Below are positions 4,757 through 62,568 of a stretch of 64,000 bases of DNA, piece by piece; the first letter of the stretch is position 1; the number at the start of each line of letters is the position of its first letter. Below the pieces are notes generated by a model, which worked only from the letters and a program-made list of their open reading frames with translations, had not been told where the DNA came from and made no database searches. The position numbers were made by a program, and so were the translations under genes. The stretch comes from Miscanthus floridulus. Taxonomy: Eukaryota; Streptophyta; Magnoliopsida; Poales; Poaceae. The stretch spans positions 99,311,792-99,375,791 of the forward strand of contig NC_089584.1 of assembly GCF_019320115.1 (NCBI RefSeq), written 5' to 3'.

Positions 4757-7700
4757 TGTGGCAGAACCACCTAATTTAATGCCTCACAGGAGTGCTTGTC
4801 TTCCATTAGACACTAAGCACTCAAGGGAGAACACTAAATTACTCGATTCCGTCGGGCACACCCCAGGGGAGAACCCGAAAATCCACGTTTTTGCCATCAG
4901 GATCACAAATAAGAGAATAAAGCTTACATCATTCGTAACCATTTCTTACATCACTTTTAATACAACATCAGAGTATAATATTTATTAATATGACAGCGGA
5001 ATGAAATCATATTATCAGAGTTATAAACAATTTACTTGAACAGCAGAATAGAAACATGTGAATAGAGTTACAACGGAAATAAACATCTATTAACGACATG
5101 ATGAAGTTTTGATATATACACTACGACAACAGATTATGAACTTTCATTTATAAAAGCATTTGGTGAGGGTTATAAATAACAACTACGATCGCAGCGTAAA
5201 GGAAATCCTCTCTGAGCCCACTAGGAGGAATCCACACACAAAGGTCAGCTCAAGCGTCCACCTGTCACCTACAACAGGGGGGAATAAAACCCTGAGTACT
5301 CAATTGTACTCAGCAAGACTTACCGGACAGGAGAAAAGAAAAGACTCCAAGGATATGCAAGACTATCTGGTTTGTGGGTTGCATTTGCATAAAGCATTAC
5401 TAAGCGTGCGTCCTTATATTTGATTTTTAATAATAGCCGCATTGGTTCATTAACTAACCATTCTATGTAAGCACATGTGCTACTTTCAAGCAGGTGGTAA
5501 GCAATCAGATTTTCTTTGTCCATCTTTCAATTCTTACTACGATGCTAAACCGTAGATAAGCCGTACCGGGTAGCCCGGCGATTCGCGAATCAATGCCCCT
5601 AGCTGGGTACCCCGAAAACACACGCCCCGCTTGTACCCCGGGCACAAGCAGGACCAACCCATCACTCTCCTGTCCCGGGTGTCTAGGTCCCCGTCCAAAC
5701 TGGGACTCCAAGCCCCCGCCCCTGAGTCCTAGACTCAGCGCGGTGCAAGGATCTCCTCCACCAAAAACAAACCCTGATAGTCGGTCCGGAAAGAGCCGGA
5801 TCCGCGATAAGAGAGCAACAAGCTTTCCAAGCGCCCGTACACAAGTATGTGCTCGGGATAATAAGTCTGTGACCTGCCTAGAGTCATATGCACGATTGGT
5901 CCTTAATCGACCAGACAGGGAGAAACGGTGTAACCAAGCTATGACCCGCCTCCGCGGTGACACAACTTCTTACACCCACCAATACCCAAACCATATCCCT
6001 GCTCGGTCACCATTTTCATATTTTCCAAGTGATAGTAATCCAATAATATATTTCCTATCTCTCGCGAGTGACAGGCAAATACTCGACTTCTATCGGAGTC
6101 CTGTAGCATAGCAATCTACACGATCCTATCATACTAGTAAGACTCATAGGATAAAGATATATATGCAAGTGGGTTTCATTCAACTCCTTAAAACTTAATG
6201 CACATATATAATTTAAACTGCAGAAAAGTAGGGGTTATGCACCGGGGCTTCCCTGGGAAAAATATAATCAGAAGTCAGCTTTCCATCATGGCGACATGAT
6301 CTCCAAAAGCACCATTCCTCCAGCAACTCCCGACGACTCCGTGATCCACCGACAATCCTATTATGATATGCAATGTAATGCCATGCAAAGATATAATTAA
6401 TTGACCGCAATCGTGACTCGTATAAATATGCTTTACGCCTCTCAAGTTAACGGACTAGTTCTAACGACGACCGTACTTAGCTACGTATCCATATTGTCGA
6501 ACAAGGCATTATTTCTTAACAATTCTTTTAGTTATATAAACCAACGATGTTTCTTTATTCGCAATAGGACATTATTATTTATCTAGCAACTAATTATTCT
6601 AGAGCTACAAAATTATGGTAAGCAGCTAATATTGCTAGGAACCTACTGTAAAGATTTCAGATCTAATACTATAACCAATTTGTCACGAAAGTTTCTACAA
6701 GTTTATATTTTTCAATATTAAATATCTTAGATTAATTATATGGCTTCCAAAAATATCATCGAACTATGTGAACAAAATATACTAATAGGTAAATCATGAT
6801 TTTAGGAGACTAACAAAATTGGTTTCATAATTTTTGGACAACTACACAAATGTATTTTGATTTTACACTTTTATTCCCGAACTAAATTAGCTACTTGTTT
6901 TTAGAAAATCAAAGGAACCAGCAGGCACCAACGGCCCAGAGGAGACCGGCGGTACCAGGCCAGCCCAGCTGGCGAGCGCAACCGGCGGCCTAGGCGCGCA
7001 GGCCTCCGGTCGGCCCAGCAGCGACGACCACCGGCCGGCCCAGGCGCGGGACAGCACGCACGGCTCAGCAGCGCAAGAGTAGCCCAGGCGAGGCACGCGG
7101 CCAGCGGGCCCAGGGGCAGGCGGCCGCAGCCCAGCAACGCAGGCCAGCCCAGGGGAAAACACAGGCGCGCTGTCCATTTTGCAAAGAGGACCCTTTTCTA
7201 TTTGTAAATCACGTTCCAACTATTAACACTATGTATCCGTCTCACCATCTATACGATTTAGCCCCTACGTTATCCTATCTTCGCCATTCCCCAGTCCCCG
7301 AGCCTCCTAGAGCAGAGCACGCCGGCGTGCGGCGGCTGCTCGACGGCCAAGCCTGGCTAGGGAAAGCCCTGTGGCGATACGGTGGTGCGGGGGCTATGCG
7401 GGGGTCACACACGCACAAGTGGGCGCAAATGATGCCACCAGCGAAGCCCTATGGTGGCTCGGCCACGCGTGGCAGAGGAGAGCAGGGGCGGTGGCACACG
7501 ACATGGGCGACGGTGAGGCATCGGGCCTGGTTCCACCCCAACGGTGCACATGCAGGGCATAGGTAGGTTGAGGCGGAGCCGCTACAAGGCGCGTAAGGCG
7601 TGGAGGTGCTCCAAGCCGAGCTAGTCATGGACATAGCCATGACGGCGACCATGGCCGTCCGCCCCAAGGAAGTGGCGCGGACGCCCCGGTGAACCAGAGC

Positions 7701-9178
7701 TACGGGTACACCAATGGAAAGAGGGGAAGCATCAGGGAGTTACCACAAATTCCGCACGCAGACTGGTTCAGGTGGAGGCAGCGTGGAATGGGCTAGCCAC
7801 GTGCGCGGTGAAGGGCAGCGGCGCGGCCACGGACGACGGAGCGGCGTAGAGGAAGCCCGCGATGAGCTGTGCGCGGTGAAGTCGTATTGGCGCGGACGAG
7901 CAGCGCCACAGGGGCTGCGGGCCAGCACGAGGCCACGAGTGTGCACACGCGTTTGCAAGAGACGGGGTCTCAGACGACGACGGACGTCGTGGCGAGGATG
8001 ATGCAGAGCCGCACACGGATGGCAACGGGGCGACCTGGTGCAGCGGCGCTCGCGCGTGGTCACGCGGGGAGGGGCACGGGCATCGGCGAGGCGCTGCGGC
8101 TGCGGTGACGGGAGCACAAGGCAGCAACGGCAGCGGGATGGTATGGCCGAATGACCCTACGGTGGAGGTGGAGGGCAGCGCGGTCGAACAGCGGGGTCGG
8201 CGCGGGATTGAAGGCGTGCGCGGATGGCGGCGTGGTGCTGCGGAGCTCGGCGCGAGAGGTGCGTGGATGCGACCCAGGCGGTTGCTCGGCCAGGTGGCTC
8301 AGGAGCACCGGCGTGTGGCACGAGAGAGGCAGCACAAAGGGCAAGGGACGCGGGCGACCGGAGGAAGGAAGGAGCGGCGGCGCCGACCGAGGGCGCGCGC
8401 GCGCGTGGAAAAGAGCCGGCCCCAGCGCGGGACGCTACGGTGGGACGGTGTGGGGCCAAGGGGCGCGCGCTGGCAGGAGGACTCCCCGGCTCCAGGCAGC
8501 CTGGCGCAGCCATGGCTGGGCGCAGCAACGTGGCCGAGCGCGGGCTTACAGATGAGGAAATGGACGCCCAAACTCCAAGCGCAGTGGGTAGGCGAAGAAG
8601 CAAGGAAGAAAAGTGCCTGCAGCAGCACGGACGGCCCGGCGTAGGAGAAATATAGAAAATGAAGGTAGACAGCGACAGACAGGCACAGAACAAAAGGTGA
8701 GGGCCTGAGCGCGTTCGGTCGGCGCAGACAGCTCCATAAATGTGTTCCTGCGCGCTGCGCGTGGTCAACTACCACAGTGACGCGGCCGGCAACGCGACGA
8801 GACAACAAAGGAAGACAAACAATGCCAGATCAGGGACAGCGTGGCGCGACGCGAGTAACTCGGGTAATCGATTTAGAGCAGGGAAAACGACACCGTCGTA
8901 CCTACGAGGCAGGTGGGACGAGTGGCCAGCGACACTCGCATTTTTATTTCTATTTCATTTTAAGTTTTTAACCTGATTAACTTTCAATTTTTATTTCGTA
9001 ACAAAAATTGTTTTCGTGCTCAATCCAACAGAACAAGCCATTCACTATTTAATTGTTAGAATTGCTAGCGCATATTTTAAACATAATTAAAAATTTTAAA
9101 ATCTGACAGACTTGTTTCGGTCACTTTTATTAGGCCTAAACGCGGCGCTAAACGAGATCGTAACTCCGGGGTGTTACA
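4757..9178 (-). repeat. 3' LTR of the inner ORF0-only element
   Basis: Close copy of 12622-17045, including a GC-rich block (about 6900-8930) full of overlapping spurious ORFs on both strands. A perfect 8-bp stem CTGAGTAC/GTACTCAG lies at 5292-5313. On the sense strand a donor-like GGTAAGTC lies just upstream of it. Confidence 0.95.
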
Positions 9179-12621: not shown

Positions 12622-15600
12622 TGTGGCAGAACTGCCTAATTTAATGCCTCACAGGAGTGCATGTCTTCCATTAGACACTACGCACTCAAGGGAGAACACT
12701 AAATTACTCGATTCCGTCGGGCACACCCCAGGGGAGAACCCAAAAATCCATGTTTTTTGCCATCAGGATCACAAATGAGAGAATAAAGCTTACATCATTC
12801 ATAACCATTTCTTACATCACTTTTAATACAACATCAGAGTATAATATTTATTAATATGACAGCGGAATGAAATCATATTATCAGAGTTATAAACAATTTA
12901 CTTGAACAGCAGAATAGAAACATGTGAATAGAGTTACAATGGAAATAAACATCTATTAACGACATGATGAAGTTTTGATATATACACTACGACAACAGAT
13001 TATGAACTTTCATTTATAAAAGCATTTGGTGAGGGTTATAAATAACAACTACGATCGCAGCGTAAAGGAAATCCTCTCTGAGCCCACCAGCAGGAATCCA
13101 CACACAAAGGTCAGCTCAAGCGTCCACCTGTCACCTGCAACAGGGGGGAATAAAACCCTGAGTACTCAATTGTACTCAGCAAGACTTACCCGGCAGGAGA
13201 AAAGAAAAGACTCCAAGGATATGCAAGACTATCTGGTTTGTGGGTTGCATTTGCAGAAAGCATTACTAAGCGTGCGTCCTTATATTTGATTTTTAATAAT
13301 AGCCGCATTGGTTCATTAACTAACCATTCTATGTAAGCACATGTGCTACTTTCAAGCAGGTGGTAAGCAATCAGATTTCCTTTGTCCATCTTTCATCTTT
13401 CAATTCTTACTACGATGCTAAACCGTAGACAAGCCGTACCGGGTAGCCCGGCGATTCGCGAATCAATGCCCCCAGCTGGGTACCACGAAAAAACACGCCC
13501 CGCTTGTACCCCGGGCACAAGTAGGACCAACCCATCACTCTCCTATCCTGGGTGTCCAGGTCCCCGTCCAAACTGGGACTCCAAGCCCCCGCCACTGAGT
13601 CCCGGACTCAGCGCGGTGCAAGGACCTCCTCCACCAAAAACAAACCCTGACAGTCGGTCCAGAAAGAGCCGGATCCACGATAAGAGAGCAACAAGCTTTC
13701 CAAGCGCCCATACACAAGTATGTGCTCGGGATAATAAGTCTGTGATCTGCCTAGAGTCATATGCACGATCGGTCCTTAATCGACCAGACAAAGAGAAACG
13801 GTGTAACCAAGCTATGACCTGCCTCCGCGGCGACACAACTTCTTACACCCACCAATACCCAAACCATATCCCTGTCCGGTCACCATTTTCATATTTTTCA
13901 AGTGATAGTAATCCAATAATATATTTCCTATCTCTCGCGAGTGACAGGCAATCACTCGACTTCTACCGGAGTCCTATAGCATAGCAATCTACACGATCCA
14001 GTCATACTAGTAAGACTCATAGGATAAAGATATATATGCAAGTGGGTTTCATTCAACTCCTTAAAACTTAATGCACATATATAATTTAAACCGCAGAAAA
14101 GTAGGGGTTATGCATCGGGGCTTGCTCGGGAAAAATATAATCAGAAGTTAGCTTTCCATCATGGCGACATGATCTCCAAAAGCACCATTCCTCCAGCAAC
14201 TCCTAACGACTCCGTGATCCACCGACGTCCCTATTATGATATGCAATGTAATGCCATGCAAAGATATAATTAATTGACCGCAATCGTGACTTGTATAAAT
14301 ACGTTTTACGCCTCTCAAGTTAACGGGCTAGTTCTAACGACGACCGTACTTAGCTACGTATCCATGTTGTCGAACAAGGCATTATTTCTTAACAATTCTT
14401 TTAGTTATATAAACCAACGGTGTTTCTTTATTCGCAATAGGACATTATTATTTATCTAGCAACTAATTATTCTAGAGCTACAAAATTATGGTGAGCAGCT
14501 AATATTGCTAGGAACCTACTGTAAATATTTCAGATCTAATACTATAACCAATTTGTCACGAAAGTTCCTACAAGTTTATATTTTTCAATATTAAATATCT
14601 TAGATTAATTATATGGCTTCCAAAAATATCATCGAACTATGTGAACAAAATATACTAATAGGTAAATCATGATTTTAGGAGACTAACAAAATTAGTTTCA
14701 TAATTTTTGGACAACTACGCAAATGTATTTTGATTTTACACTTTTATTCCCGAACTAAATTAGCTACTTGTTTTTAGAAAATCAAAGGAACCAGCAGGCA
14801 CCAACGGCCCAGAGGAGACCGGCGGTACCAAGCCAGCCCAGCTGGCGAGCGCAACCGGCGGCCCAGGCGCATAGGCCTCCGGTCGGCCCAGCAGCGACGG
14901 CCACTGGCCGGCCCAGGCGCGGGACAGCACGCACGGCCCAGCAGCGCAAGAGCAGCCCAGGCGAGGCACGCGGCCAGCGGGCCCAGGGGCAGGCGGCCGC
15001 AGCCCAGCAACGCAGGCCGGCCCAGGGGAAAACACAGGCGCGCTGTCCATTTTGCAAAGAGGACCCTTTTCTATTTGTAAATCACGTTCCAACTATTAAC
15101 ACTATGTATCCGTCTCACCATCTATACGATTTAGCCCCTACGTTATCCTATCTTCGCCATTCCCCAGTCCCCGAGCCTCCTAGAGTAGAGCACGCCGGCG
15201 TGCGGTGGCTGCTCGACGGCCAAGCCTGGCTAGGGAAAGCCCTGCGGCGATACGGTGGTGCAGGGGCTATGCGGGGGTCGCACACGCACAAGTGGGCGCA
15301 AACGATGCCACCAGCAAAGCCCTGTGGCGGCTCGGCCACGCGTGGCAGAGGAGAGCAGGGGCGGTGGCGCACGACGCGGGCGACGGCGAGGCATCGGGCC
15401 TGGTTCCACCCCAACGGCGCACATGCGGGGCATAGGTAGGTTGAGGCGGAGCCGCTACAAGGCGCGTAAGGCGTGGAGGTGCTCCGAGCCGAGCTAGTCA
15501 CGGACATAGCCATGACAGCGACCATGGCCGTCCGCCCCAAGGAAGTGGCGCGGACGCCACGGTGAACCAGAGCTACGGGTACACCAATGGAAAGAGGGGA

Positions 15601-17045
15601 AGCATCAGGGAGTTACCACAAATGCCGCGCGCGAACTGGTTCGGGTGGAGGCAGCGTGGAACGGGCTGGCCACGTGCGCGGTGAAGGGCGGCGGCGTGGC
15701 CACGGACGACGGAGCGGCGCAGAGGAAGCCCGCAGTGAGCTATGCGCGGCGAAGTCGTATTGGCGCGGACGGGCAGCGCCACAGGAGCTGCGGGCCAGCA
15801 CGAGGCCACGAGTGTGCACACGCGTTCGCAAGAGATGGGGTCTTAGACGACGACGGACGTCGTGGCGAGGATGATGCAGAGCCGCACACGGACAGCAACG
15901 GGGCGACCTGGTGCAGCGGCGCTCGCGCATGGTCACGTGGGGAGGGGCACGGGCATCGGCGAGGCGCTGCGGTGACGGGAGCACAAGGCGGCAACGGCAG
16001 CAGGATGGTATGGCCGGATGGCCCTGTAGTGGAGGCAGAGGGCAGCACGGTGGAACAGCAGGGTCGGTGCGGGATTGAGGGCGTGCACGGATGGCGGCGT
16101 GGTGCTGCGGAGCTCGGCGCGAGAGGTGCGCGGATGCGACCCAGGCGGTTGCTCGGCCAGGCAGCTCAGGAGCACCGGTGCGTGGCACGAGAGAGGCAGC
16201 ACAGAGGGCAAGGGACGCGGGCGACCGGAGGAAGGAAGGAGCGGCGGCGCCGACCGAGGGCGCGCACGCGCGTGGAAAAGAGCCGGCCCCAGCGTGGGGC
16301 GCTATGGTGGGACGACGTGGGGCCAAGGGGCGCGCGCTGGCAGGAGGACTCCCCGGCTCCAGGCGGCCTAGCGCAGCCATGGCTGGGTGCAGCAACGCGG
16401 CCGAGCGCAGGCTTACAGACGAGGAAATGGACGCCCAAACTCCAAGCGCAGTGGGTAGGCGAAGAAGCAAGGAAGAAAAGTGCCTGCAGCAGCACGGACG
16501 GCCCGGCGTAGGAGAAATATAGAAAATGAAGGTAGACAGCGACAGACAGGCACAGAACAAAAGGTGAGGGCCTGAGCGCGCTCGGTCAGCGTAGACAGCT
16601 CCATAAATGTGTTCCTGCGCGCTGCGCATGGTCAACTGCCACAGTGACGCGGCCGGCAACGCGATGAGACAACAAAGGAAGACAAACAATGCCAGATCTG
16701 GGACAGCGTGGCGCGACGCGAGTAACTCGGGTAATCGATTCAGAGCAGGGAAAACGACATCGTCGTACCCGCGAGGCAGGTGGGACGAGTGGCCAGCGAC
16801 AGTCGCATTTTTATTTCTATTTCATTTCAAGTTTTTAACCCGATTAACTTCCAATTTTTATTTCGTAACAAAAATTGTTTTCGTGCTCAATCCAACAGAA
16901 CAAGCCATTCACTATTTAATTGTTAGAATCGCTAGCGGATATTTTAAACATAATTTAAAATTTTAAAATCTGACAGACTTGTTTCGGTCACTTTTATTAG
17001 GCCTAAATGCGGCACTAAACGAGATCGTAACACCTGGGTGTTACA
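12622..17045 (-). repeat. 5' LTR of the inner ORF0-only element
   Basis: Near copy of 4757-9178 with scattered substitutions. The conserved stem CTGAGTAC/GTACTCAG is at 13158-13179. The long ORF at 15613-16689 lies in the GC-rich LTR block and has low-complexity composition; I do not regard it as a gene. Confidence 0.95.
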
Positions 17046-28410: not shown

Positions 28411-28415
28411 ATCCC
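28411..28415. repeat. Target-site duplication ATCCC, left copy
   Basis: ATCCC precedes the gypsy LTR (28416) and recurs at 43695-43699; it lies inside a PMD exon. Confidence 0.93.
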
Positions 28416-31400
28416 TGTCGCAGAACCGACCAATTTATAAGAATACAAGTACAATGGCAATCCACAAGCGGTCGCACTGTTATACTTGAACCCATATAAA
28501 CCCGGTAGTCCGTCGAGTACCACAACGGGTCTCGATAAACGATTTACAACAACCAAGATCGTACAGGATTCAACATACATGCCACATATTACATAAAGTT
28601 CACAGATACCTTTCATCATCAGAGTACGAATAAAAAGTTATTACAAACCGAGTTTGATAATTAAAGCGGAATCAAATAAGTTCGAAGATAAAGTTTCCAA
28701 CATAGTTTGATACAGTGCCAAACCAGATCACGGTCCACAAAAGCAAAGATAGGAATTACTAAGGAAGCCTGCCTAAGGCTTACTCCTCATCCACAGCGGG
28801 ATAGAAGCAACTCTTGCAATAACCATGATACACAGTGCCATCTGCAACAATGGGAAAATAAACCCTGAGTACGAGAAGATACTCAGCTAGACTTACCCGT
28901 CATGAACCAGAAATAAAAGGACTCCAAGGATTATGCAAGGCTGTATAAGTGGACGTAACTTGACAACATTTTGCGTAAAAGGCAATTTACCCGTTGTACA
29001 ATTATGATTCCTTTATCAAGTTAATTATAACTATCCATTTCTAGGTTTGCAACTATCCTGTGCCAAACATGTAGTATATCATTTAGAAGCATACAATAGT
29101 AACCATAGCAGGTATTGTGATTCCATATTCATCCGAACCATCATGTTTCATAATATAGCTGCTACGATGTTGGGACTAGCCAAGTTTCTCACTATCCGGG
29201 AGAGACGGCGATTCGAATCGATTTTCAATCAGCTGGGAATTTATTCCTAACACAAACCCAGATCTACCAGCCACGATAGTCTTAGGTCACCTTTGGTACA
29301 ACTCAGGTACATATTTCGCGGGTCCGTACCGCGCCGCATAATTTGGAACACCAGATGACAGGATGCTCAGGCCAAACCTGCCCTTGGGCTCAGTCTAATC
29401 GTTCCCCGGAAGGAGCGCACAACAGAACGGTTCCCGGCCTGAGTTAAATTACTCGGCTTCACGGTCGGAACGAGTTATCTGGCCAGCTAAGTGAGAGGCA
29501 TGCGTTCAATCTTGTTAGAAGCGCCAACAACGGTACGGTCCTTAATCGACACGGACGGGGATAAGTCCACACCCAAGACCTCCATGCCCTGTTGCTTCCC
29601 TATCGACCTCCCGTCTGGTCTCAATTTACTTTTACCTCATGGTTCTGTTCCACGATAGCAGATATAGCCAACCGTGCTCCGGTATCCACCTATATCTCGC
29701 AGGTGACAGGACATCACCCGACTTCTACCGGTCTAAGCATGGCTAAGCATATATATTCAATCATGGACCTATACCGGTTAAAGGGATAATATCTGGACAA
29801 GGATTGTACATGCATCAAGTGGTTTCATTCAACTCTTATAACCTAATGCATCAATCATAAGTACGTAAATAAACATTTGTAAATTACTGGGAGACTTATA
29901 ATGCTCCGGGGCTTGCCTCGCAGAAAGGAAGTAGGGCGATGGTCAGGGCACTCCGGAAGCTCTTCAGGGTTCTGCTCCACGCCTTCGGGAGCTACGGCTT
30001 GCGGATCCTCCTGCGGGTTCCCTTCCTCTGCTTCTTCGAATTCCAGCAACGTGATCTCTTCCTCCGATCCTAGATGCATGAGTATGGTATAAGTATTACG
30101 AATGCATATATGTTAACAAGTGCATCATGTTGTTTGAGTAGGTGCATATCTCTTCTCGATTACTACTTAACTACTTCTACAATGCATCGACTAGGCCACA
30201 ATTAGTAGCTACTTGTTTTACTCATAACTGGAGTTCTATAATCCAAAAGCAGTGATCCTAGACTTTCTGGAAAGCATATCAAATTTTCTACGACTTTGTT
30301 ATTCACCATTTTTACAGTCTACATCAGTTTCAACATGTAACTCCTCACACTCTAGAATCAGTCTAGAAATGATTTAACATGCAATATAAAGTAATAACAC
30401 CTCTACTTCATGTAATCATTCAAAATTTGACAACCTAGAACCTACCAACAGTTTAAGCATACCAAATATAGTTAAGATAATATAATGGTGAAGCCCAAAC
30501 TATTTATTAAATTGCCTTTATTATTTTATTTATATATCTAGGTTAAATAATAAATATATATCAGATGTGCTTAATAAATTCTCAAAATTTTACAGAGCCT
30601 TACTAATGCTATCAAAGGACTACTATAAAAATTTCATGTCATTTTACTAAGTAGAACATCCTATACAAAAATGATAAGGAAGCAAGGCTTGAAATAGCAT
30701 AAATGGAAAATCCTATTAAAAAGTGTCAAGCAATAGATTTCTTATTTTTCCTAACACCCATATGGTACTAGTATCACCTCCAACAAATTTCATGAATTTT
30801 GGACTCATAATTAATTTATAAAAATTCATGCAAGGATTAACTATTTATAAAAGAAAAATCTATAACTATAGATCTACACATGCACTGGTCTTCAAATTTT
30901 TATCCAAGCTCATATATGCTAATACTAGCTTACCACAAAAATTTCATAATTTTTGGAGCACAGGAACTCTAGATATAAAATAAACAAATTTGAATGCATT
31001 CAAAAGCACATTTCAAATCCTTATTTAAATCTCCAGAAATTTCTACTGTTGAAGCCAAGAACATATTTTTACTAAATACTACACTTCCTAAGCAACACAA
31101 TCATATTTGTTTCACAATTTTTGGAGCTACCAAACTCAAGATACAAATTTCCCAAAACAAATCAAAAACTAGATTCAAAATGAGTTAGCCTTCACTACTG
31201 CTGTCGCTGACAGGTGGGACCCGCTGGTCAGGGGACCCCACATGTCATCGACACCGAAGCAGAGTGGCAGCGCTGTACGCTGCGGGCGCGGCCAGAGCTC
31301 GCCGATGGCGAACTCGCCGGCGGTGACATCATCACACGATGATCTACTCGACTTCGCGCATCGATTGAGCTACGTGGGTGGCCTTCTTGTCGGAGCTAGC

Positions 31401-32805
31401 GGCTACGGCGGCGGCCATGGCGGGGTGGAGGTGCGGGTCAATGGTGAAACGCCGGTGTGGGCTACGGTGGCTCGAACAGACGCTGTGCCGAGCATCACTG
31501 AGCTACGGCGGAGCCACCTAGTGCCCTAACGCGGCCTGGGATGGACGGTGGTGACGTGGCCACGGAGACGGAGCTCACGGCGGAACTCCGACGAGCTTAA
31601 ACGCACGGCGATGGCTTACCAAGCTTGGTCAGCGAGCACGGGAGGGAGCAGTGGGTCGCTGAGAAGACGGTGAAGCTTTGGTGGTGGTGCTGGAGTGGCT
31701 AGGCGCGGGCTGCGCGCGGCTATGGCGACGGCGGAGCTGCGGGCGCTCGGCGGCTGCTGCAGCGGGGAGAAAAGCCGAGGCGAAGCAAATGGAGGCGCGG
31801 GATGGCTCGGGCGGGCGCTGGCGTGATGAAGGCGCGCTCGGGCGCGGCGTGGCCTGCGCGGACAGAGCGCTGGCGACGCGCGGCCGTCGCCGAGGACACG
31901 CGGTGCACGGATTCTGAAACCGGTCGGCCATTCGAACGTCGATTCAGTTCGTCAGACACGATCGGAACAGCCTGACAGCGAGTTTTGGCGATGACTTAAC
32001 TTCCAATCCGTGACGAATTAGCGCTAAGGTTACTAAACCGACTTTGTAGACCTAAGTACTAGTTACAATTGTTGTTCAATGATCGTGTTCCAATTCTTAT
32101 CGTAAACCGAGTAAAATCATGATCAAAGTCGGCTCGTCAGGCTGTCAGTCGAGCAAACACTTAGAAAATTTTTGAAGTGCTGAAAACAGTGAAAAGCTGA
32201 TTTTTGTGAGTCCAATTCAAACATGTTAGAAGCTAAATCAGTCCATGACATAAAAATAAAAGTTGTTCCTTATGTCAAACACTACAACTTTGCTTTAGTG
32301 AAACTCCTCCATGCAAGGTCTCTAACACCTAGTTTAACTTTAGTCAAACATGTCACTTTGAAATCATGATACATACTCAAACCTTGACTAAATGACCAAA
32401 CTAGCCCTAGCACTAAATACCAAAGTTGTTCCTAATGATATCCTAAGCATGTTTAAACAATTTGCAAGGTCATTTAAGCATTTCATGTAGTAGTCACTCA
32501 TAGAGCTATTGAAAGTAATCACATGAAATATCACTTAAGTGCTTGGTCATGAAATGTGGCCTTCATGAACAAGGTTCCTTTTGTTAACCTAAGTATAGCT
32601 AAGGTGTTTTAGTGACCAACATTACCCACTTGCATCCATTTGCACATGATCATAGGCATATGTTCCAAGAAACACGAGATAACAAGCAATGTTTCATATG
32701 TTTCGATCAAATGTTTCAATTGTAAATGATGATTTATGAATGCTTGATGCTCATGCTCATGTTATGCAAGTCAAGTTATGCAAGGCTAACACCCGAGGTG
32801 TTACA
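28416..32805 (-). repeat. 3' LTR of the chromovirus
   Basis: Near-identical to 39307-43694. The stem CTGAGTA/TACTCAG lies at 28865-28886. A GC-rich block spans about 31190-31960. A small acidic ORF (29855-30079, minus) is present in both LTR copies. Confidence 0.95.
29855..30079 (-). other. Small acidic ORF inside the LTR (also at 40746-40970)
   Basis: 74 codons starting MHLGSEEEITLLEFEEAEEG, very acidic, open in both LTR copies with one conspicuous V/A difference. The inner element's LTR has a similar frame at the equivalent place (LLEEW then FPREAP, versus LLEFE then FLRGKP). It may be an upstream exon or leader ORF of the element transcript; two young LTRs would be alike anyway, so coding is unproven. 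Confidence 0.35.
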
Positions 32806-32848: not shown

Positions 32849-35800
32849 CTACCATTCTTGGAAAAAGGCGGGATAAACTTCTTGCAGATAATCTTCTCTT
32901 TCCCATGTAGCATCTTGTTCACTATGATTGTTCCACACCACCTTATAGAAACTTAATAATCTTACTCCTTGTCACTCTCTCCATCTCTTCTAATACTCGA
33001 ATTGGCTTTTCTTCATAGGTCAAATCCGATTGAAGCTGCACGTTGGTGGGTGCAATAGATTCTTCCGGTACTCGAAGATATTTCTTTAGCTGCGAAACAT
33101 GGAACACATCAAAGATTGCACTCATCTCTGGTGGTAGTTGTAGCTTGTACGCAACATTTCCTTTTCGTTCCAAAATTTTGTATGGCCCTACATATCTTGG
33201 TGAAAGCTTCTTTTTCATCCCAAATCTCTTCACACCTTTCATGGGTGATACTCTCAAGTATACATAGTCACCCACTTCAAAAGTCAGTGGTCTTCTTCTC
33301 CTGTCGGCATAACTTTTCTGTCTTGATTGAGCTACCTTCATGTGTTGTTGGATGATACGTACTTGTTCTTCGGCTTCATTGACAAAATCAATACCAAAAT
33401 ATCTCCTTTCACCGGGCTCAATCCAATTCAGTGGAGTTCTGCACTTTCTGCCATACAAGGCTTCAAATGGAGCCATTTTGATACTTGCTTGATAACTGTT
33501 GTTATAGGAGAATTCAGCTAAAGGTAACCATTTCTCCCATGAACCTTTTGAAGATATAACACAAGCCCTAAGTAAATCTTCTAGGATTTGGTTCACTCGC
33601 TCTGTCTGTCCTGAAGTTTGCGGATGATAAGCTGAACTTCTGATTAGCTTGGTTCCCAAAGCTTGGTGTAAGTGCTCCCAGAAACGAGCTATGAACTGTG
33701 GTCCTCTATCTGAGATTATGGTCCTAGGTACTCCATGCAATCTCACGATTTGGGCAACATATATTCCAGCGTATTTCCCAACTATATACCACGTGTTCAC
33801 GGGTATAAAGTGTGCTGACTTGGTAAGACGATCAACAATGACCCAGATTGAATCGTGACCTTGTGGTGTTGTTGGAAGGCCTGTAATAAAGTCCATACTG
33901 ATCTCTTCCCATTTCCATCCTGGAATAGGCAGTGGCTGAAGTAATCCAGTGGTTTTCATATGGACGGCTTTCACTCTACTGTAGTTATCACACCTAGCAA
34001 CATAGGCTGCGATCTCTTTCTTCATCTTAGTCCACCAAAAATGGGTTCTTAGATCTTGATACATTTTACTACTACCCAGGTGGATAGACAATTTGGACGA
34101 GTGAGCTTCTTCTAAAATTTGATTCCTTAGCTCACGGTCTTTCGGCACCACTAGTCGGTCCTCAAACCATAATACACCTCTTTCGTCCAATCTAAAGTGT
34201 TTTGTTTCTTGCTCTTGCATTTTTCTCTTTATGTGACTTATTCCTACATCAGTCTGCTGTAGCTCTATGATTTTGCCCTCAAGCGAACAACTGATTGTGA
34301 TATTGTGTAGTACAGTAGGATGTAGCAAGTTGAACCCATCTTCCAATAGCGCTTCCATAGTGTTGCAATGGGACTTTCGACTAAGTGCATCGGCTACTAT
34401 ATTAGCTTTACCCGGATGGTAATGCACTTCCAAATTATAGTCCTTAATCAATTCCAACCATCTACGTTGTCTCATGTTCAGTTCTGGCTGAGTAAAGATA
34501 TACTTGAGGCTTTTGTGGTCAGTATATATATGACATACATTGCCCAACAAGTAATGTCTCCATATCTTTAATGCATGGACAACGGCTGCAAGTTCCAAAT
34601 CATGTGTAGGGTAGTTGACTTCATGTTTCCTCAATTGCCGAGAGGCATATGCAATTACTCTCCCTTCTTGCATAAGTACACATCCCAAACCTATTCCTGA
34701 TGCATCACAAAATACATCAAAAGGCTTCTCAATGTCTGGTTGTGCTAGCACTGGCGCTGTAGTCAACAAAGTTCTGAGGGTGTGAAAAGCTGTTTCACAT
34801 TCTGGTGTCCACTTGTATTTCTCATCTTTCTGAAGTAGTCTGGTCATAGGCTTAGCTATCTTTGAGAAGTCTGGAATAAACCGGCGATAGTATCCTGCTA
34901 ACCCAAGAAAACTCCGAACTTCATGCACCGAAGTTGGGGCTTTCCAATCCATGACCTCTTGTACTTTTGATGGGTCTACTGAGATTCCATCTCTCGATAA
35001 AATGTGACCTAAAATGGTACTTTGCTCATCCAAAATTCACATTTGCTAAACTTGGCATATAGCTTATGCTCCCTCAGTCTGGATAGGACAATCCTCAGAT
35101 GCTCTTCATGATCTGACTCATTTTCTGAATAAATCAATATGTCATCGATAAACACGACCACGAACTTATCAAGTTCGGGCATGAATACCGAGTTCATTAG
35201 GTACATAAAGTAGGCTGGAGCATTTGTTAGTCCGAAAGACATAACCAAATACTCGTATAAGCCGTACCTAGTAGAGAAAGCAGTTTTAGGTATATCCTTC
35301 GGTCTGATCTTTATCTGATGGTAACCTGATTTCAAGTCAATTTTGGAGAATATCTTTGCCTTCGCTAGCTGATCGAACAAGATGTCGATGCGGGGTAACG
35401 GATATTTGTTCTTGATGGTCACATCATTGAGTGGTCTGTAATCTACACACATCCTCAGCGACTTATCCTTCTTTTTTACAAACAATGCTGGGCATCCCCA
35501 CGGAGATGAGCTAGGTTGGATAAGACCTTTGTCTAATAGATCTTGCAATTGAACCTTGAGTTCTGCTAACTCATTGGGTGGCATTCTATAGGGCCTTCTG
35601 GATATGGGTGTGGTACCTGGCACTAATTCGATCTTAAATTCCACGTCCCTATCCGGTGGGAGACCTGGTAACTCCTCTGGAAATACATCCGGAAACTCAC
35701 AAACCACTGGAATATCACACATGGTGGTGGCTTGGATAGCATAGGCTAAATGTTGGGGTTCGAATTCGCGGAAGAGTGGAACTAGAAAAGCATTCCCTCC

Positions 35801-37261
35801 CGTGGGTTCTCTCAACATAATGGTACGGGTGCTAGTGTCAATAAGAGCACCATGATCCTTCATCCAATTCATGCCTAAGATTACACTTATCGATAATCCC
35901 GGCAATATTATCAAATCTGTTGTGTACTCCCTCCCTTGTATCAAGATGAGTACATTTTTTACTATCTTTTTGGTAATAACAGTTCCCCCTGCTGAACTTA
36001 TGTTAAAACCCCCTTTACTTACTTCTATTATTTCTTGATCATGTCTAGATGCAAATGCTTGACTCATAAATGAATGAGAAGCTCCCGAATCAAATAAAAC
36101 AACAGCGGGATGCTTGTTGACAAGAAACATACCGGCCGTGACAACTTCTCCGGTGGGCACTTCCTCCACAGCGGTGTAATGTACTTGTCCCTGACGTGCC
36201 CTGGCATTCACCTGCCTCTGATTGTTCTGATTTGGGTTGCCATTCCTCTTGGGGTGGGGGCACTCCTTGGACCAATGACCCAGTTGGTTGCAGTTGAAAC
36301 ATGGTTGATTACTTCTGAGTCCTGTGGAGCTGTCCTGATTGCCATTTCCTTTTGGTAAGGCAATAGTGAACGCCTTACGAAAGGGTTTCTGTGGCCTATT
36401 ATTCTGAGCTTTTGGTGGTGTTGGCCTGAACTTGGGTGCAGGTGGACGGAATTGTGGCCTAGCTGTGATAGGCGCTTTTGACTAGAAAGATCCGGATGCA
36501 CCGGCCTCATAGGCCCTCTTGCGACCTTTAGCAACTGCATGCATGTTGTTGTGGTTTTCTTGGGTCAAGGCATCACTAATAAACTCATTGTACATGGCAC
36601 ATCGAGAGTTTGCCATAGTCTTCATTAATTTGGTACCCAGACCTCACTTGAAACTCTCAATCTTTTTCTCTTCAGTATCCACGAAACTTGGAGCATATCT
36701 TAACAAGTTGTTGAATGCGTGCATATATTCTGTGAGTGACTTTGTTCCCTGAGTGAGCCTCATAAATTCTGCTGCTTTCATGCGCATCAGGCCCGGGGGA
36801 ATATGGTGTCCCCTAAAAGCCAACTTGGATTAATCCCAGGTCACTCTCGCATTAGCAGGCAGAGACGACAGAAAGTGCGTCCACCAGATTCCTGCTGGTC
36901 CTTGCAATTGATGAGAAGCATATTCTGCTTTCAGGTGCTCTGTGACCCTTAGCAGACGAAATTTCTGCTCGATGGTATTCAGCCACTCATCGGCCTGCAG
37001 TGGTTCCTCAGCCACCTTGAAGATCGGTGGCTTTGTGTCCAGAAATTCCTTGAATGAACTGTGCTGATTTGGCTCGGCCCCTGGTTGCTGTGGGTGGCCA
37101 CGAGCAGTGTTTTGCGTGATAAGGCGCAAAGCTTCTTCTATTGTCCTCTGGCTCCCTAGGAACTGGGCAAAGAATTCCTGAGCAGACGGCGGCGGTGGGG
37201 GTGGCAAGTCATCGTGGTTGCCATCCTGCCTGCTACTAGCTCCTGCACGGGTGCGCGTCAT
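32849..37261 (-). pseudogene. Gag-Pol polyprotein of the chromovirus, with stops and frameshifts
   Basis: Starts at ATG 37259-37261 (MTRTRAGASSRQDGNHDD). Domains in order: Gag with FKEFLDTKPPIF and WLNTIEQKFRLL; CCHC knuckle [14 protein letters not shown]; protease [12 protein letters not shown] with [10 protein letters not shown]; RNase H region [13 protein letters not shown]; integrase with [15 protein letters not shown] and GQTERVN (the D, D, E); and a C-terminal chromodomain-like stretch VVWNNHSEQDATWERED. Damage: TAA after NARVTWD (about 36829), TGA after KKIESFK (about 36645), TAG before SKAPITARP (about 36482), a 1-bp deletion-type frameshift near 35015, and another shift near 32945 just before the chromodomain-like part. 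The integrase zinc motif reads CDNYS where a second Cys is expected. It would replicate and integrate the element, but this copy cannot encode the complete polyprotein. Confidence 0.9.
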
Positions 37262-37613: not shown

Positions 37614-38540
37614 CTAATCCTCATCATGATCACTATCAAGGTCAGACGCAGAATCATCTCCTTCCTCAGGTTCTACTTCTTCTCCCGGTGCCACTTCTTC
37701 TTCACCTTCCTTGTATCCTTCTAGATCCATTTCTGCGGCTCTAGGTGGGACATAAGGGTGGAGCTGATTGTGTAGTAGATGAACCTCTTCATGCAGATTA
37801 TCGTTGTATTCTTCTGCATTGGCCAGCTGCTGTCCTAGTTCAAACTGTCGAGCCCTCAGGACATCTTCCCTGGACCAAGCTGCATTTCGCTGGTGAGTTA
37901 ACCTAGTCATCTCTTCGGTGAGCCTTTCAATCTCGGCGTCGTGCTCCCTCTGAAGCTGACGTCGGTCATCACGGGCATGACTAAGAGCACCAGACACACG
38001 TCTGAGGCTACCTTCAACTCCATTTAACACTCTCATCATTGCGAACATGGCGCTCATTGTAGGGTTATCACTGTTCTGCCCTTCTGCTGCACCAATTTCC
38101 AAGGGTCTTCCTCTTGCCTGCTGCCATGAGTCAGTGGAGGGATTACCTCTTGGAAAGACTCCAACCAAAGCGGCTGCCAGCTCCTGAGGAAAACGATCCA
38201 TGATATTCCTCAAGATCCCAAAAGCTGCCCTACCAGCTGCTTCTTCAGCAGTCCTACCAGTTGACTCATAACACCAGCCTGTCCATTCAGAATCGTCACC
38301 TCGGGGACGAACAACGGCCTCCACAGTAACTAAGAGACCTTCTCCCAACCGCTCATTCGCCCAGAAGTAGCGGGGTTCCATTCCACCAGGATAACCTACA
38401 TAGCTGAGCACTCTCCACAAGAGTGTAGGCATCCCAAACTCTCCAAGGAACGTGTGACGTTGACGGGTACGTGGAGCAAGCTGACGGCTAGGAGCTTTGC
38501 CTCCGGTGGACTTGCGAGCAGTCTACTTGGTGCGTGCCAT
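37614..38540 (-). pseudogene. ORF0 with histone H3-tail-like N-terminus, premature TAG at codon 6
   Basis: From ATG 38538-38540 the frame reads MARTK, TAG, TARKSTGGKAP, then SRQLAPRTRQRH, and continues without further stops to 37614 (308 codons if the TAG is ignored). The first 21 residues match the canonical H3 tail except for the stop at Gln5, S for R17 and R for K18. A second ATG (codon 37, 38432) allows a 272-aa product lacking the tail. Domains: H3-like tail 1-22; basic linker; globular region about 35-130 (LLVTVEAVV, AGRAAFGILRNIMDRFP); coiled coil about 162-260; acidic tail 270-308 ending in an Asp/Glu-rich run. It lies between the 5' LTR and gag. No histone-fold core follows, so this is not a captured histone gene copy in the usual sense. 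The globular and coiled parts resemble the ORF at 11010-11849. Confidence 0.85.
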
Positions 38541-39292
38541 CTGCACCATTAATATGTACCTTTGGTGAGACAAAGCCATAATGGATAAGAGTTACATAAC
38601 CGAGTAAGAATTTTATAAGGGGAGGAATAATGTAGTTATGTGAATGGTAATTTAACATGATGCATGCTCATGCCGTACGTCCTTATAAACTTAGGAAAAA
38701 TTTGTTTCTAACGGTAGACACGGTGGCATACATACGTTCTCTCATACATAGCGTAACTAGTCGAGCTACATGTTTCGTTGTTAGTGTACCTGCATAAAAT
38801 TTCATTTCAGCCCTAAACCCATAATGAATTACGCAGAATGTAATTGTAAATACTTTCATATATGTATACCCATACATATACTTCCGTATCAATCTACTCG
38901 ACAAGAATTTAAACCCACAATTAAATACGTACCATATACACATGCAAGCATGTATACATAGCCGTACCAAGCTAACTCTTCCCGACCGCACGCTCACATC
39001 TTGCGGTCATACTCTCATCTTACCTTGGCGTAGAGGCATTTGATCCATACATTATCACTCAAGTGAATGGCATCCATACTATAGCACGCCGTATGGACGA
39101 CGAAGCAAAAACCCCCATGTTAGTACTTAAATAGCCACCTAATAGTCCTTAATTTGGGCATAAGGAAAGTGATCATTGGCACACTTTAGGTTTCAAATAC
39201 CTATTATATAACTAATAGTTGCTAGAGAAGGGTTTTTGGAAAACAAAAACTTTTGTTTTTAAATACACTTGTGACAATTAACGTTAAATCTT
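38541..39292 (-). other. 5' leader of the chromovirus
   Basis: AT-rich region between PBS and ORF0; nothing coding recognised. Confidence 0.5.
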
Positions 39293-39304: not shown

Positions 39305-39306
39305 GC

Positions 39307-42300
39307 TGTCGCAGAACCGACCAATTTATAAGAATACAAATACAATGGCAATCCACAAGCGGTCGCACTGTTATACTTGAACCCATATAAACCCGGTAGT
39401 CCGTCGAGTACCGCGACGGGTCTCGATAAACGATTTACAACAACCAAGATCGTACAGGATTCAACATACATGCCACATATTACATAAAGTTCACAGATAC
39501 CTTTCATCATCAGAGTACGAATAAAAAGTTATTACAAACCGAGTTTGATAATTAAAGCGGAAGCAAATAAGTTCAAAGATAAAGTTTCCAACATAGTTTG
39601 ATACAGTGCCAAACCAGATCACGGTCCACAAAAGCAAAGATAGGAATTACTAAGGAAGCCTGCCCAAGGCTTACTCCTCATCCACAGCGGGATAGAAGTA
39701 ACTCTTGCAATAACCATGATACACAGTGCCATCTGCAACAATAGGAAAATAAACCCTGAGTACGAGAAGGTACTCAGCTAGACTTACCCGTCATGAACCA
39801 GAAATAAAAGGACTCCAAGGATTATGCAAGGCTGTATAAGTGGACGTAACTTGACAACATTTTTCGTAAAAGGCAATTTACCCGTTGTACAATTATGATT
39901 CCTTTATCAAGTTAATTATAACTATCCATTTCTAGGTTTGCAACTATCCTGTGCCAAACATGTAGTATATCATTTAGAAGCATACAGTAGTAACCATAGC
40001 AGGTATTGTAATTCCATATTCATCTAAACCATCACGTTTCATAATATAGCTGCTACGATGTTGGGACTAGCCAAGTTTCTCACTATCCGGGAGAGACGGT
40101 GATTCGAATCGATTTTCAACCAGCTGGGAATTTATTCCTAACACAAACCCAGATCTACCAGCCACGATAGTCTTAGGTCACCTTTGGTACAACTCAAGTA
40201 CACATTTCGCGGGTCCGTACCGCGCCGCACAATCTGGAACACCAGATGCCAGGATGCTCAGGCCAAACCTGCCCTTGGGCTCAGTCTGATCGTTCCCCGG
40301 AAGGAGCGCACAACAGAACGGTTCCCGGCCTGAGTTGAATTACTCGGCTTCGCGGTCGGAACGAGTTATCCGGCCAGCTAAGTGAGAGGCATGCGTTCAA
40401 TCTTGTCAGAAGCGCCAACAATGGTACGGTCCTTAATTGACACGGACGGGGATAAGTTCACACCCAAGACCTCCATGCCCTGTTGCTTCCCTATCGACCT
40501 CCCGTCCGGTCTCAATTTACTTTTACCTCATGGTTCTGTTCCACGATAGCAGATATAGCCAACCGTGCTCCGGTATCCACCTATATCTCGCAGGTGACAG
40601 GACATCACCCGACTTCTACCGGTCTAAGCATGGCTAAGCATATATATTCGATCCTGGACCTGTACCGGTTAAAGGGATAATATCTGGACAAGGATTGTAC
40701 ATGCATCAAGTGGTTTCATTCAACTCTTATAACATAATGCATCAATCATAAGTACGTAAGTAAACATTTGTAAATTACTGGGAGACTTATAATGCTCCGG
40801 GGCTTACCTCGCAGAAAGGAAGTAGGGCGATGGTCAGGGCACTCCGGAAGCTCTTCAGGGTTCTGCTCCACGCCTTCGGGAGCTGCGGCTTGCGGATCCT
40901 CCTGCGGGTTCCCTTCCTCTGCTTCTTCGAATTCCAGCAACGTGATCTCTTCCTCTGATCCTAGATGCATGAGTATGGTATAAGTACTACGAATGCATAT
41001 ATGTTAACAAGTGCATCATGTTGTTTGAGTAGGTGCATATCTCTTCTCGATTACTACTTAACTACTTCTACAATGCATCGACTAGGCCACAATTAGTAGC
41101 TACTTGTTTTACTCATAACTGGAGTTCTACAATCCAAAAGCAATGATCCTGGACTTTCTAGAAAGCATATCAAATTTTCTACGACTTTGTTATTCACCAT
41201 TTTTACAGTCTACATCAGTTTCAACATGTAACTCCTCACACTCTAGAATTAGTCTGGAAATGATTTAACATGCAATATAAAGTAATAACACCTCTACTTT
41301 ATGTAATCATTCAAAATTTGACAACCTAGAACCTACCAACAGTTTAAGCATACCAAATATAGTTAAGATAATATAATGGTGAAGCCCAAACTATTTATTA
41401 AATTGCCTTTATTATTTTATTTAGATATCTAGGTTAAATAATAAATATATATCAGATGTGCTTAATAAATTCTCAAAATTTTACAGAGCCTTACTAATGC
41501 TATCAAAGGACTACTATAAAAATTTCATATTATTTTACTAAGTAGAACATCCTATACAAAAATGATAAGGAAGCAAGGCTTGAAATAGCATAAATGGAAA
41601 ATCCTATTGAAAAGTGTCAAGCAACAGATTTCTTATTTTTCCTAACACCCATATGGTACTAGTATCACCTCCAACAAATTTCATGAATTTTGGACTCATA
41701 ATTAATTTATAAAAATTCATGCAAGGATTAACTATTTATAAAAGAAAAATCTATAACTATAGATCTACACATGCACTGGTCTTCAAATTTTTATCCAAGC
41801 TCATATATGCTAAGACTAGCTTACCACAAAAATTTCATAATTTTTGGAGCACAGGAACTCTAGATATAAAATAAACAAATTTGAATGCATTCAAAAGCAC
41901 ATTTCAAATCCTTATTTAAATCGCCAGAAATTTCTACTGTTGAAGCCAAGAACATATTTTTACTAAATACTACACTTCCTAAGCAACACAATCATATTTG
42001 TTTCACAATTTTTGGAGCTACCAAACTGAAGATACAAATTTCCCAAAACAAATCAAAAACTAGATTCAAAATGAGTTAGCCTTCACTACTGCTGTCGCTG
42101 ACAGGTGGGACCCGCTGGTCAGGGGACCCCACATGTCATCGACACCGAAGCAGAGTGGCGGCGCTGTACGCTGCGGGCGCGGCCAGAGCTCGCCGACGGC
42201 GAACTCGCCGGCGGTGACATCATCACACGATGATCTACTCGACTTCGCGCATCGATTGAGCTACGTGGGTGGCCTTCTCGTCAGAGCTAGCGGCTACGGC

Positions 42301-43694
42301 GGCGGCCATGGCGGGGTGGAGGTGCGGGTCGATGGTGAAACGCCGGTGTGGGCTACGGTGGCTCGAACAGACGCTGTGCCGAGCATCACCGAGCTACGGC
42401 GGAGCTACCTAGTGCCCTAACGCGGCCTGGGATGGACGGTGGTGACGTGGCCATGGAGACGGAGCTCACGGCGGAACTCCGGCGAGCTTAAACGCGCGGC
42501 GATGGCTTACCAAGCTTGGTCAGCGAGCACGGGAGGGAGCAGTGGGTCGCTGAGAAGACGGTGAAGCTTTGGTGGTGGTGCTGGAGTGGCTAGGCGCGGG
42601 CTGCGCGCGGCTATGGCGACGGCAGAGCTGCGGGCGCTCGGCGGCTGCTGCAGCGGGGAGAAAAGCCGAGGCGAAGCAAATGGAGGCGCGGGATGGCTCG
42701 GGCGGGCACTGGCGTGATGAAGGCGCGCTCGGGCGCGGCGTGGCCTGCGCGGACAGAGCGCTGGCGACGCGTGGCCGTCACCGGGGACACGCGGCGCGTG
42801 GATTCTGAAACCGGTCGGCCATTCGAACGTCGATTCAGTTCGTCAGACACGATCGGAACAGCCTGACAGCGAGTTTTGGCGATGACTTAACTTCCAATCC
42901 GTGACGAATTAGCGCTAGGTTACTAAACCGACTTTGTAGACCTAAGTACCAGTTACAATTGTTGTTCAATGATCGTGTTCCAATTCTTATCGTAAACCGA
43001 GTAAAATCATGATCAAAGTCGGCTCGTCAGGCTGTCAGTCGAGCAAACACTTAGAAAATTTTTGAAGTGCTGAAAACAGTGAAAAGCTGATTTTTGTGAG
43101 TCCAATTCAAACATGTTAGAAGCTAAATCAGTCCATAACATAAAAATAAAAGTTGTTCCTTATGTCAAACACTACAACTTTGCTTTAGTGAACTCCTCCA
43201 TGCAAGGTCTCTAACACCTAGTTCAACTTTAGTCAAATATGTCACTTTGAAATCATGATACATACTCAAACCTTGACTAAATGACCAAACTAGCCCTAGC
43301 ACTAAATACCAAAGTTGTTCCTAATGATATCCTAAGCATGTTTAAACAATTTGCAAGGTCATTTAAACATTTCATGTAGTAGTCACTCATAGAGCTATTG
43401 AAAGTAATCACATGAAATATCACTTAAGTGCTTGGTCATGAAATGTGGCCTTCATGAACAAGGTTCCTTTTGTTAACCTAAGTATAGCTAAGGTGTTTTA
43501 GTGACCAACATTACCCACTTGCATCCATTTGCACATGATCATAGGCATATGTTCCAAGAAACACGAGATAACAAGCAATGTTTCATATGTTTCGATCAAA
43601 TGTTTCAATTGTAAATGATGATTTATGAATGCTTGATGCTCATGCTCATGTTATGCAAGTCAAGTTATGCAAGGCTAACACCCGAGGTGTTACA
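39307..43694 (-). repeat. 5' LTR of the chromovirus
   Basis: Near copy of 28416-32805. The 8-bp stem CTGAGTAC/GTACTCAG lies at 39756-39777, and the sense-strand donor-like GGTAAGTC is just upstream of it. Confidence 0.95.
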
Positions 43695-61715: not shown

Positions 61716-62568
61716 ATGATAGTACATATGTTAACCAATCCTGCATGGCAGGAGAGTTTGGCATAGTACTTATCCCGCATGGCGGGAGAAGGATGTGATG
61801 ACTCATGTGCTCTAAGTGTATCCCGCACATGGAGAGAAGTTTGAGGTAGCTTTTATGCTATCCTAGTATTGACCGTACACTCTGATTGTGTCATGGTCAT
61901 TAAGTACTCAATGAGTTTAAGAATAAAAGAAAGTTGCATGTGAACCAAAAGATAAGAATGATATGCAAGCATGACTTGCAGAAGTATTGATAATAACAGA
62001 CTATGTTGAGTTTTGAAGTGTAATGAGAAAAATGTACTCCCATACGAATTTTGTTTGCATGATGTAATCATGTGGATGAAGTAAGTAATCAAAGTTTCCT
62101 CATTCACAAGAGTTCTGAATGTTTTGAAATGTGGTATGAACTTTTCTACCACAATTTTGAAACATTCAGAACTCTTGTGAATGAGGAAACTTTGATTACT
62201 TACTTCATCCACATGATTACATCATGCAAACAAAATTCGTATGGGAGTATATTTTTCTCATTACACTTCAAAACTCAACATAGTCTATTATTATCAATAC
62301 TTCTGCAAGTCATGCTTGCATATCATTCTTATCTTTTGGTTCACATGCAACTTTCTTTTGTTCTTAAACTCATTGAGTACTTAATGACCATGACACAATC
62401 AGAGTGTACGGTCAATACTAGGATAGCATAAAAGCTACCTCAAACTTCTCTCCATGTGCGGGATACACTTAGAGCACATGAGTCATCACATCCTTCTCCC
62501 GCCATGCGAGATAAGTACTATGCCAAACTCTCCCGCCATGCAGGATTGGTTAACATATGTACTATGCC
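61716..62568. repeat. Near-perfect inverted repeat, arms about 420 bp, loop about 10 nt
   Basis: 61720 onward (TAGTACATATGTTAACC) is the reverse complement of sequence ending 62564; the symmetry centre is near 62142. The arms meet at TGTGGTA, a short loop, TACCACA. Two ORFs of 119 codons, one per strand, encode almost the same peptide simply because of the symmetry. Transcription would give a long hairpin RNA. Confidence 0.93.

Follow-up and report, generated by a model that had tools for sequence, protein, structure and literature searches.

Plant transposon silencing works through marks on the tail of histone H3. Viral histone mimics are parasite proteins that show an H3-tail-like stretch to the chromatin factors of the host; influenza NS1, with its H3-like end, is an example. 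Transposon-coded proteins that counter epigenetic silencing are represented by the VANC proteins of Hiun/VANDAL elements, which act through sequence-specific DNA binding and on which we know of no histone tail. The NS1 mimic consists of a few residues at the C-terminus, while the stretch described here, carried by the ORF0 protein of a plant retrotransposon, covers 21 residues at the N-terminus and is likely host-derived.

Another plant Ty3/gypsy lineage with a gained host-like part has been described in orchids, where an AlkB-like ORF, an extra host-like domain, is proposed to counter host control (PMC9289625); it is an enzyme domain (m6A demethylase) with no histone sequence, unlike ORF0. 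The closest described systems are the ORF0 (or 5'aORF) frames that precede gag in grass Tekay elements with long LTRs, including Retrosat2, RIRE3, RIRE8 and others (PMC3485330 and PMC11728184). The maize and sorghum ORF0 are depicted as a complex of helices and strands with likeness to the DRBM (PMC11728184), and PMC3485330 states that no function could be assigned to ORF0. The ORF0 analysed here and the published grass Tekay ORF0 are alike in their position upstream of gag and, as predicted here, in their DRBM-like fold and long C-terminal helix, the likeness to the Retrosat2, RIRE3 and RIRE8 frames being one of description and not of alignment.

ORF0 and its DRBM-like fold have been published. 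An H3 tail on ORF0 was not reported in any of the matches listed by our literature searches, subscription papers (such as the first RIRE3/RIRE8 paper) lying outside their scope. Neither PMC3485330 nor PMC11728184 has 'histone' anywhere in its main text, and word finds for the H3 tail returned nothing in the accessible text of PMC3485330, PMC6317226, PMC12786077, PMC9289625, PMC11728184, PMC9033089 and PMC7264820.

The H3-like tail and its host element

In the window (the whole stretch of 64,000 nucleotides analysed), the minus-strand frame from 38540 begins MARTK*TARKSTGGKAPSRQLA (in a longer reading, MARTK*TARKSTGGKAPSRQLAPRTRQRHTFLGEFGMPTLLW), and matches the H3 N-terminal tail through residue 21 only, with 18/21 residues identical without Met and 19/22 with it. 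This look-alike had been pointed out in the initial annotation, which also held that chance could not explain it; both statements stand, a chance match being rejected by a simple binomial estimate of about 1e-19 at 7% per site. After residue 21 the frame continues, as annotated, into a non-histone protein, the rest of ORF0: no histone fold follows the tail, Pfam giving no histone match and the predicted model showing a dsRBD-like fold instead. Because of the TAG at Q5, the window copy is unable to make an intact tail.

The element hosting ORF0 is a Tekay-type Ty3/gypsy LTR retrotransposon on the minus strand, as judged from the frames between its LTRs and from its chromodomain motifs. Protease, reverse transcriptase, RNase H and integrase frames were all found between the LTRs, as in the Tekay clade of chromoviruses, and, as is typical of grass ORF0, the frame precedes the gag-like one and the LTRs, at 4.39 kb, are >3 kb long. 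A Pfam search with the gag-like frame gave no match. Type II chromodomains are characterised by the motifs (K/R)-X-(L/T)-R-X-(k/r) and EEXTWEXE-like (PMC3350952); in the window, RVTRSK and QDATWERE fit these motifs, the second agreeing at TWEXE only. In sibling copies, the chromodomain core from ERV to TWERE is in a single frame in 19/20, and the frame extends on to EVYP in 17/20, the broken copies being L082, L084 and L089.

Features of the ORF0-bearing element in the window
Feature	Position	Strand	Remarks
LTR, 5' side of element	39306..43694	-	98.2% identical to the other LTR
TATAAAA in the leader	38611..38617	-	in block CTCCCCTTATAAA, common to diverged family B
TAATGGTGCAG before ATG	38541..38551	-	splice-acceptor-like
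H3-like tail of ORF0	38475..38540	-	codons M to A21 (H3 numbering); TAG at Q5
Predicted dsRBD-like domain of ORF0	38175..38444	-	structure model, residues 27-116
Predicted long helix of ORF0, probably coiled coil	37761..38063	-	structure model, residues 154-254
Acidic C-terminal end of ORF0	37617..37739	-	low model confidence
gag-like frame	36208..37261	-	in-frame stops; CX2CX4HX4C-type knuckle (by eye)
Aspartic protease and reverse transcriptase frame	35009..36211	-	
RNase H and integrase frame	32943..35033	-	
Tekay-like type II chromodomain	32852..33015	-	integrase end; two frames in the window copy
LTR, 3' side of element	28415..32805	-	pair with 39306..43694

Two further structures were observed in the window. 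A second pair of long direct repeats (4757-9178 and 12622-17045; 4.4 kb, 95.7% identical) probably represents the LTRs of another element, and the region 61719-62565 is a large palindrome, 97.5% identical to its reverse complement.

Beyond the tail, the predicted model of ORF0 shows the alpha-beta-beta-beta-alpha fold of a dsRBD, with a best Foldseek E of 4.8e-3. RNA contacts of dsRBDs involve a basic KKxxK-type motif, and the corresponding place in the window ORF0 reads RTAEEAAGRAA, without lysines (by eye). Pfam returned nothing for ORF0 at E 0.001 and, for the related protein P0066 at E up to 1, only coiled-coil-like models below the cut-off; among solved structures, searches by sequence found only H3 peptides (E 0.066 or worse) and unrelated chains, and searches with a profile found coiled coils. 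A shortened ORF0 exists in the P0040-type proteins (P0040 to P0061), in which the tail, the coiled coil and the acidic end are kept and the dsRBD-like domain is absent; some of them have MILPLRCNFLLQ-like residues in frame ahead of the tail.

Conservation of the tail and selection on it

Related ORF0 copies of the same genome were read in three sets (70+20+20), and the H3-like tail is present in 110/110, L148 breaking off after residue 16 and L137 lacking the ATG. For the first set, family A, a genome search with ORF0 from T6 on led from 13,625 first-look candidates to 130 scored matches; 70 of these matches were read, window copy included, and 70/70 carry the tail, with R at position 14 in 69. 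The query P0026 gave 150 matches, and the tail was found in 20/20 of those read. The third query, P0007, starts after the tail, so that this search was unable to favour it; of its 128 matches, 20 were read, and in 20/20 loci the tail lies directly upstream. A stop at Q5 occurs only in the window copy among the 110, while 4/110 have a stop anywhere within the 22 tail codons.

A one-off accident, which the initial annotation had named as the conclusion to draw if related ORF0s lacked the tail, is rejected by the presence of the tail in all ORF0 copies read; an assembly chimera with a histone gene is likewise rejected, the tail occurring at many separate loci. As for the residues that the initial annotation had stressed, K4 and K9 are borne out, each being found in 110/110 copies; K14 is not, position 14 being R in 107, K in 2 and S in 1. 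The counts at other positions are A1 110, R2 104, T3 109, Q5 107, T6 109, A7 107, R8 105, S10 109, G13 110, P16 110 and L20 109; A15 and A21 are conserved as well, and position 18 is R in 89 copies, H in 20 and V in 1.

Outside this genome, three protein searches returned relatives from other samples (120 of 275 in one listing), some of which may hold the same plant. Among the 145 proteins compared, 34 have a tail score of at least 9 of 22, P0065 and P0067 having been excluded before the count; one of the 34, P0066, is the translation of locus L008. K9 and S10 are present in 34/34, K4 in 32/34 and K14 in 0/34. A further tail-bearing protein, P0146, has lost T3 and K4 and kept K9-S10, and K9 outlasts K4 in both P0068 and P0146. 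Among families, Q5, T11, R17 and K18 vary and K14 is nearly always R. As the 34 proteins and P0146 were picked by H3 likeness, they show what is kept, not how frequently tail loss occurs; only the P0007 set escapes this bias. Loss of the tail was hinted at by 28 of the 145 proteins, P0007 among them, which begin MPTLLWRV, and was rejected on the basis of the tail found upstream at the P0007-search loci; such starts probably reflect the start choice of a gene caller, a reading based on those loci and not on the proteins' own contigs. No P0007 relatives were found in the viral contigs searched. The excluded P0065, a protein from outside the window, is 193 residues long and carries four H3-tail-like repeats set apart from one another (GRTKQTAR and ARKSTGGKAPRRQLATR among them), with no ORF0 domain.

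Among the tail changes in the 70 family A copies, those confined to a single copy comprise 8 replacement and 1 silent, the pattern that post-insertion decay should give, while those seen in at least 2 copies comprise 2 replacement and 7 silent (p 0.015 against the single-copy changes), bearing in mind that the choice of these copies by protein likeness from T6 on favours silent change there. Constraint on the tail, which the initial annotation had suggested looking for, is apparent between families A and B, whose tails differ mainly at silent sites (11 silent and 3 replacement differences; dS 1.26, dN 0.065), the first 17 codons showing 8 silent and 0 replacement differences. In the next domain, dN between the same families is 0.465 and silent sites are saturated. 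Tail and next domain differ at replacement sites (p 3e-5) but not at silent sites (p 0.24; counts rounded), all these p values being a guide only, as sites are not independent. Similarly, P0066 and P0078 share 21/22 residues in the tail and 41/79 in the next domain. The between-family comparison is more telling than the constancy of K4 and K9 in young families, because their AAG codons lie outside methylated-C contexts. The sequence comparisons show a lower replacement rate in the tail than in the rest of ORF0, which supports its selective maintenance.

Origin of the tail and the ORF0 leader

In 9/9 host intron-bearing H3 genes fetched, which we take to be of the H3.3 type, the first coding exon ends after K23 and is followed by GT; the likeness of ORF0 to H3 stops at residue 21. 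Because the likeness ends near the end of this exon, capture of a host exon is likely, and we infer that the tail was taken from the first coding exon of an H3.3-type gene, perhaps together with a splice acceptor. The family A tail agrees at 51-55 of 66 bases with the 9 intron-bearing genes and at 47-51 with 9 intronless ones; for the family B tail the figures are 53 with L118 and L119, 44-46 with the other 7 intron-bearing genes and 48-50 with the intronless ones. The exon is preceded by ttaattaatgcag in 3/9 host genes, and the usual family A lead-in is gttaatggtgcag. Families A and B use an identical codon at only 9/19 shared residues, and two captures, or a later conversion, are possible; a single capture is favoured because R14 and the following domain are common to both.

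A comparison of the leader (~38541-39290, minus) with that of L130 revealed blocks common to families A and B, at 70-76% identity. These include GCCTCTACGCC with GGTAAG, TGCAGGTACA, and a TATA box located 77-90 bases before the ORF0 ATG, and suggest, as sequence features, splicing or a promoter of ORF0's own. In family A, GGTAAG is conserved to about the same degree as the leader (0.968 vs 0.963), and none of the 6/6 family B leaders contains a donor scoring 8 of 9.

Possible roles of the tail

We tentatively favour, at somewhat less than an even chance, a role of the ORF0 tail as a decoy that would occupy the plant writers and readers of H3K9 methylation. Removal of Met would expose Ala-1, and the predicted coil would present two or more tails per complex; K9 of the tail would be methylated by SUVH4-type enzymes and the methylated tail bound by CMT3-type or other readers. 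H3K9 writers and readers would thus be titrated, and the loop that links H3K9me2 and CHG methylation (PMC9033089) would be weakened at newly expressed copies. That K14 and K18 are lost and K4 and K9 kept speaks for methyl-lysine biology and not for a tail of general basic character. The nuclear localisation predicted for grass ORF0 proteins (PMC11728184) also counts in favour of the decoy. A free N-terminus is in doubt because in many family A copies additional ATGs stand in frame directly upstream of the tail (ATGTTAATGGTGCAGATG) and because in some P0041-type proteins the tail is preceded by 12 extra residues. If the decoy reading is true, a 21-residue H3 tail kept by a repetitive transposon lineage would be a direct counter-move to silencing. 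The H3 tail also gives ORF0 a testable role.

The main and boldest alternative, which we regard as rather unlikely, is that the tail serves as ligand for the type II chromodomain of the integrase encoded by the same element, whether or not K9 is methylated; ORF0 would then transport, direct or restrain the integration complex. A Tekay-like chromodomain of this type does lie in the same element, with a core largely intact among its siblings, and PMC6317226 reports that no partner of type II chromodomains has been identified; the tail would thus be a testable ligand for them. However, in these chromodomains the first aromatic cage residue is missing, and in most cases the third as well (PMC3350952), and they also occur in non-grass elements, in which ORF0 is reported as not found (PMC3485330). 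A composite of this proposal with the decoy, in which the host methylates K9 of ORF0 and the methylated tail plays both parts, as a diversion for the H3K9me2 machinery and as the missing ligand of the chromodomain encoded by the element, appears doubtful.

H3 residues 1-21 are bound by LSD1 and mimicked by SNAG-domain proteins, which would fit a further reading, itself improbable, in which another H3-tail partner, such as a demethylase of the LSD1 type, a chaperone of H3 or an import factor, reads the tail, which would thereby anchor ORF0, together with its RNA or capsid, on chromatin or in the nucleus. The conservation of A15, P16, L20 and A21 agrees with such a partner, but the host exon boundary after K23 also explains the length of the tail, and the persistence of K9 beyond K4 in P0068 and P0146 argues against it. 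It is far less probable, and already disfavoured, that the captured exon was kept for signals at the DNA or RNA level (a splice acceptor or the start context), or survives as a relic, the peptide having no role. Such signals would be consistent with the CAG found ahead of the ATG in 105/110 copies and with the GCAG just before the ATG in 3/9 host intron-bearing H3 genes; DNA signals would not, however, spare amino acids, which is the pattern seen in the first 17 codons, with 8 silent against 0 replacement differences.
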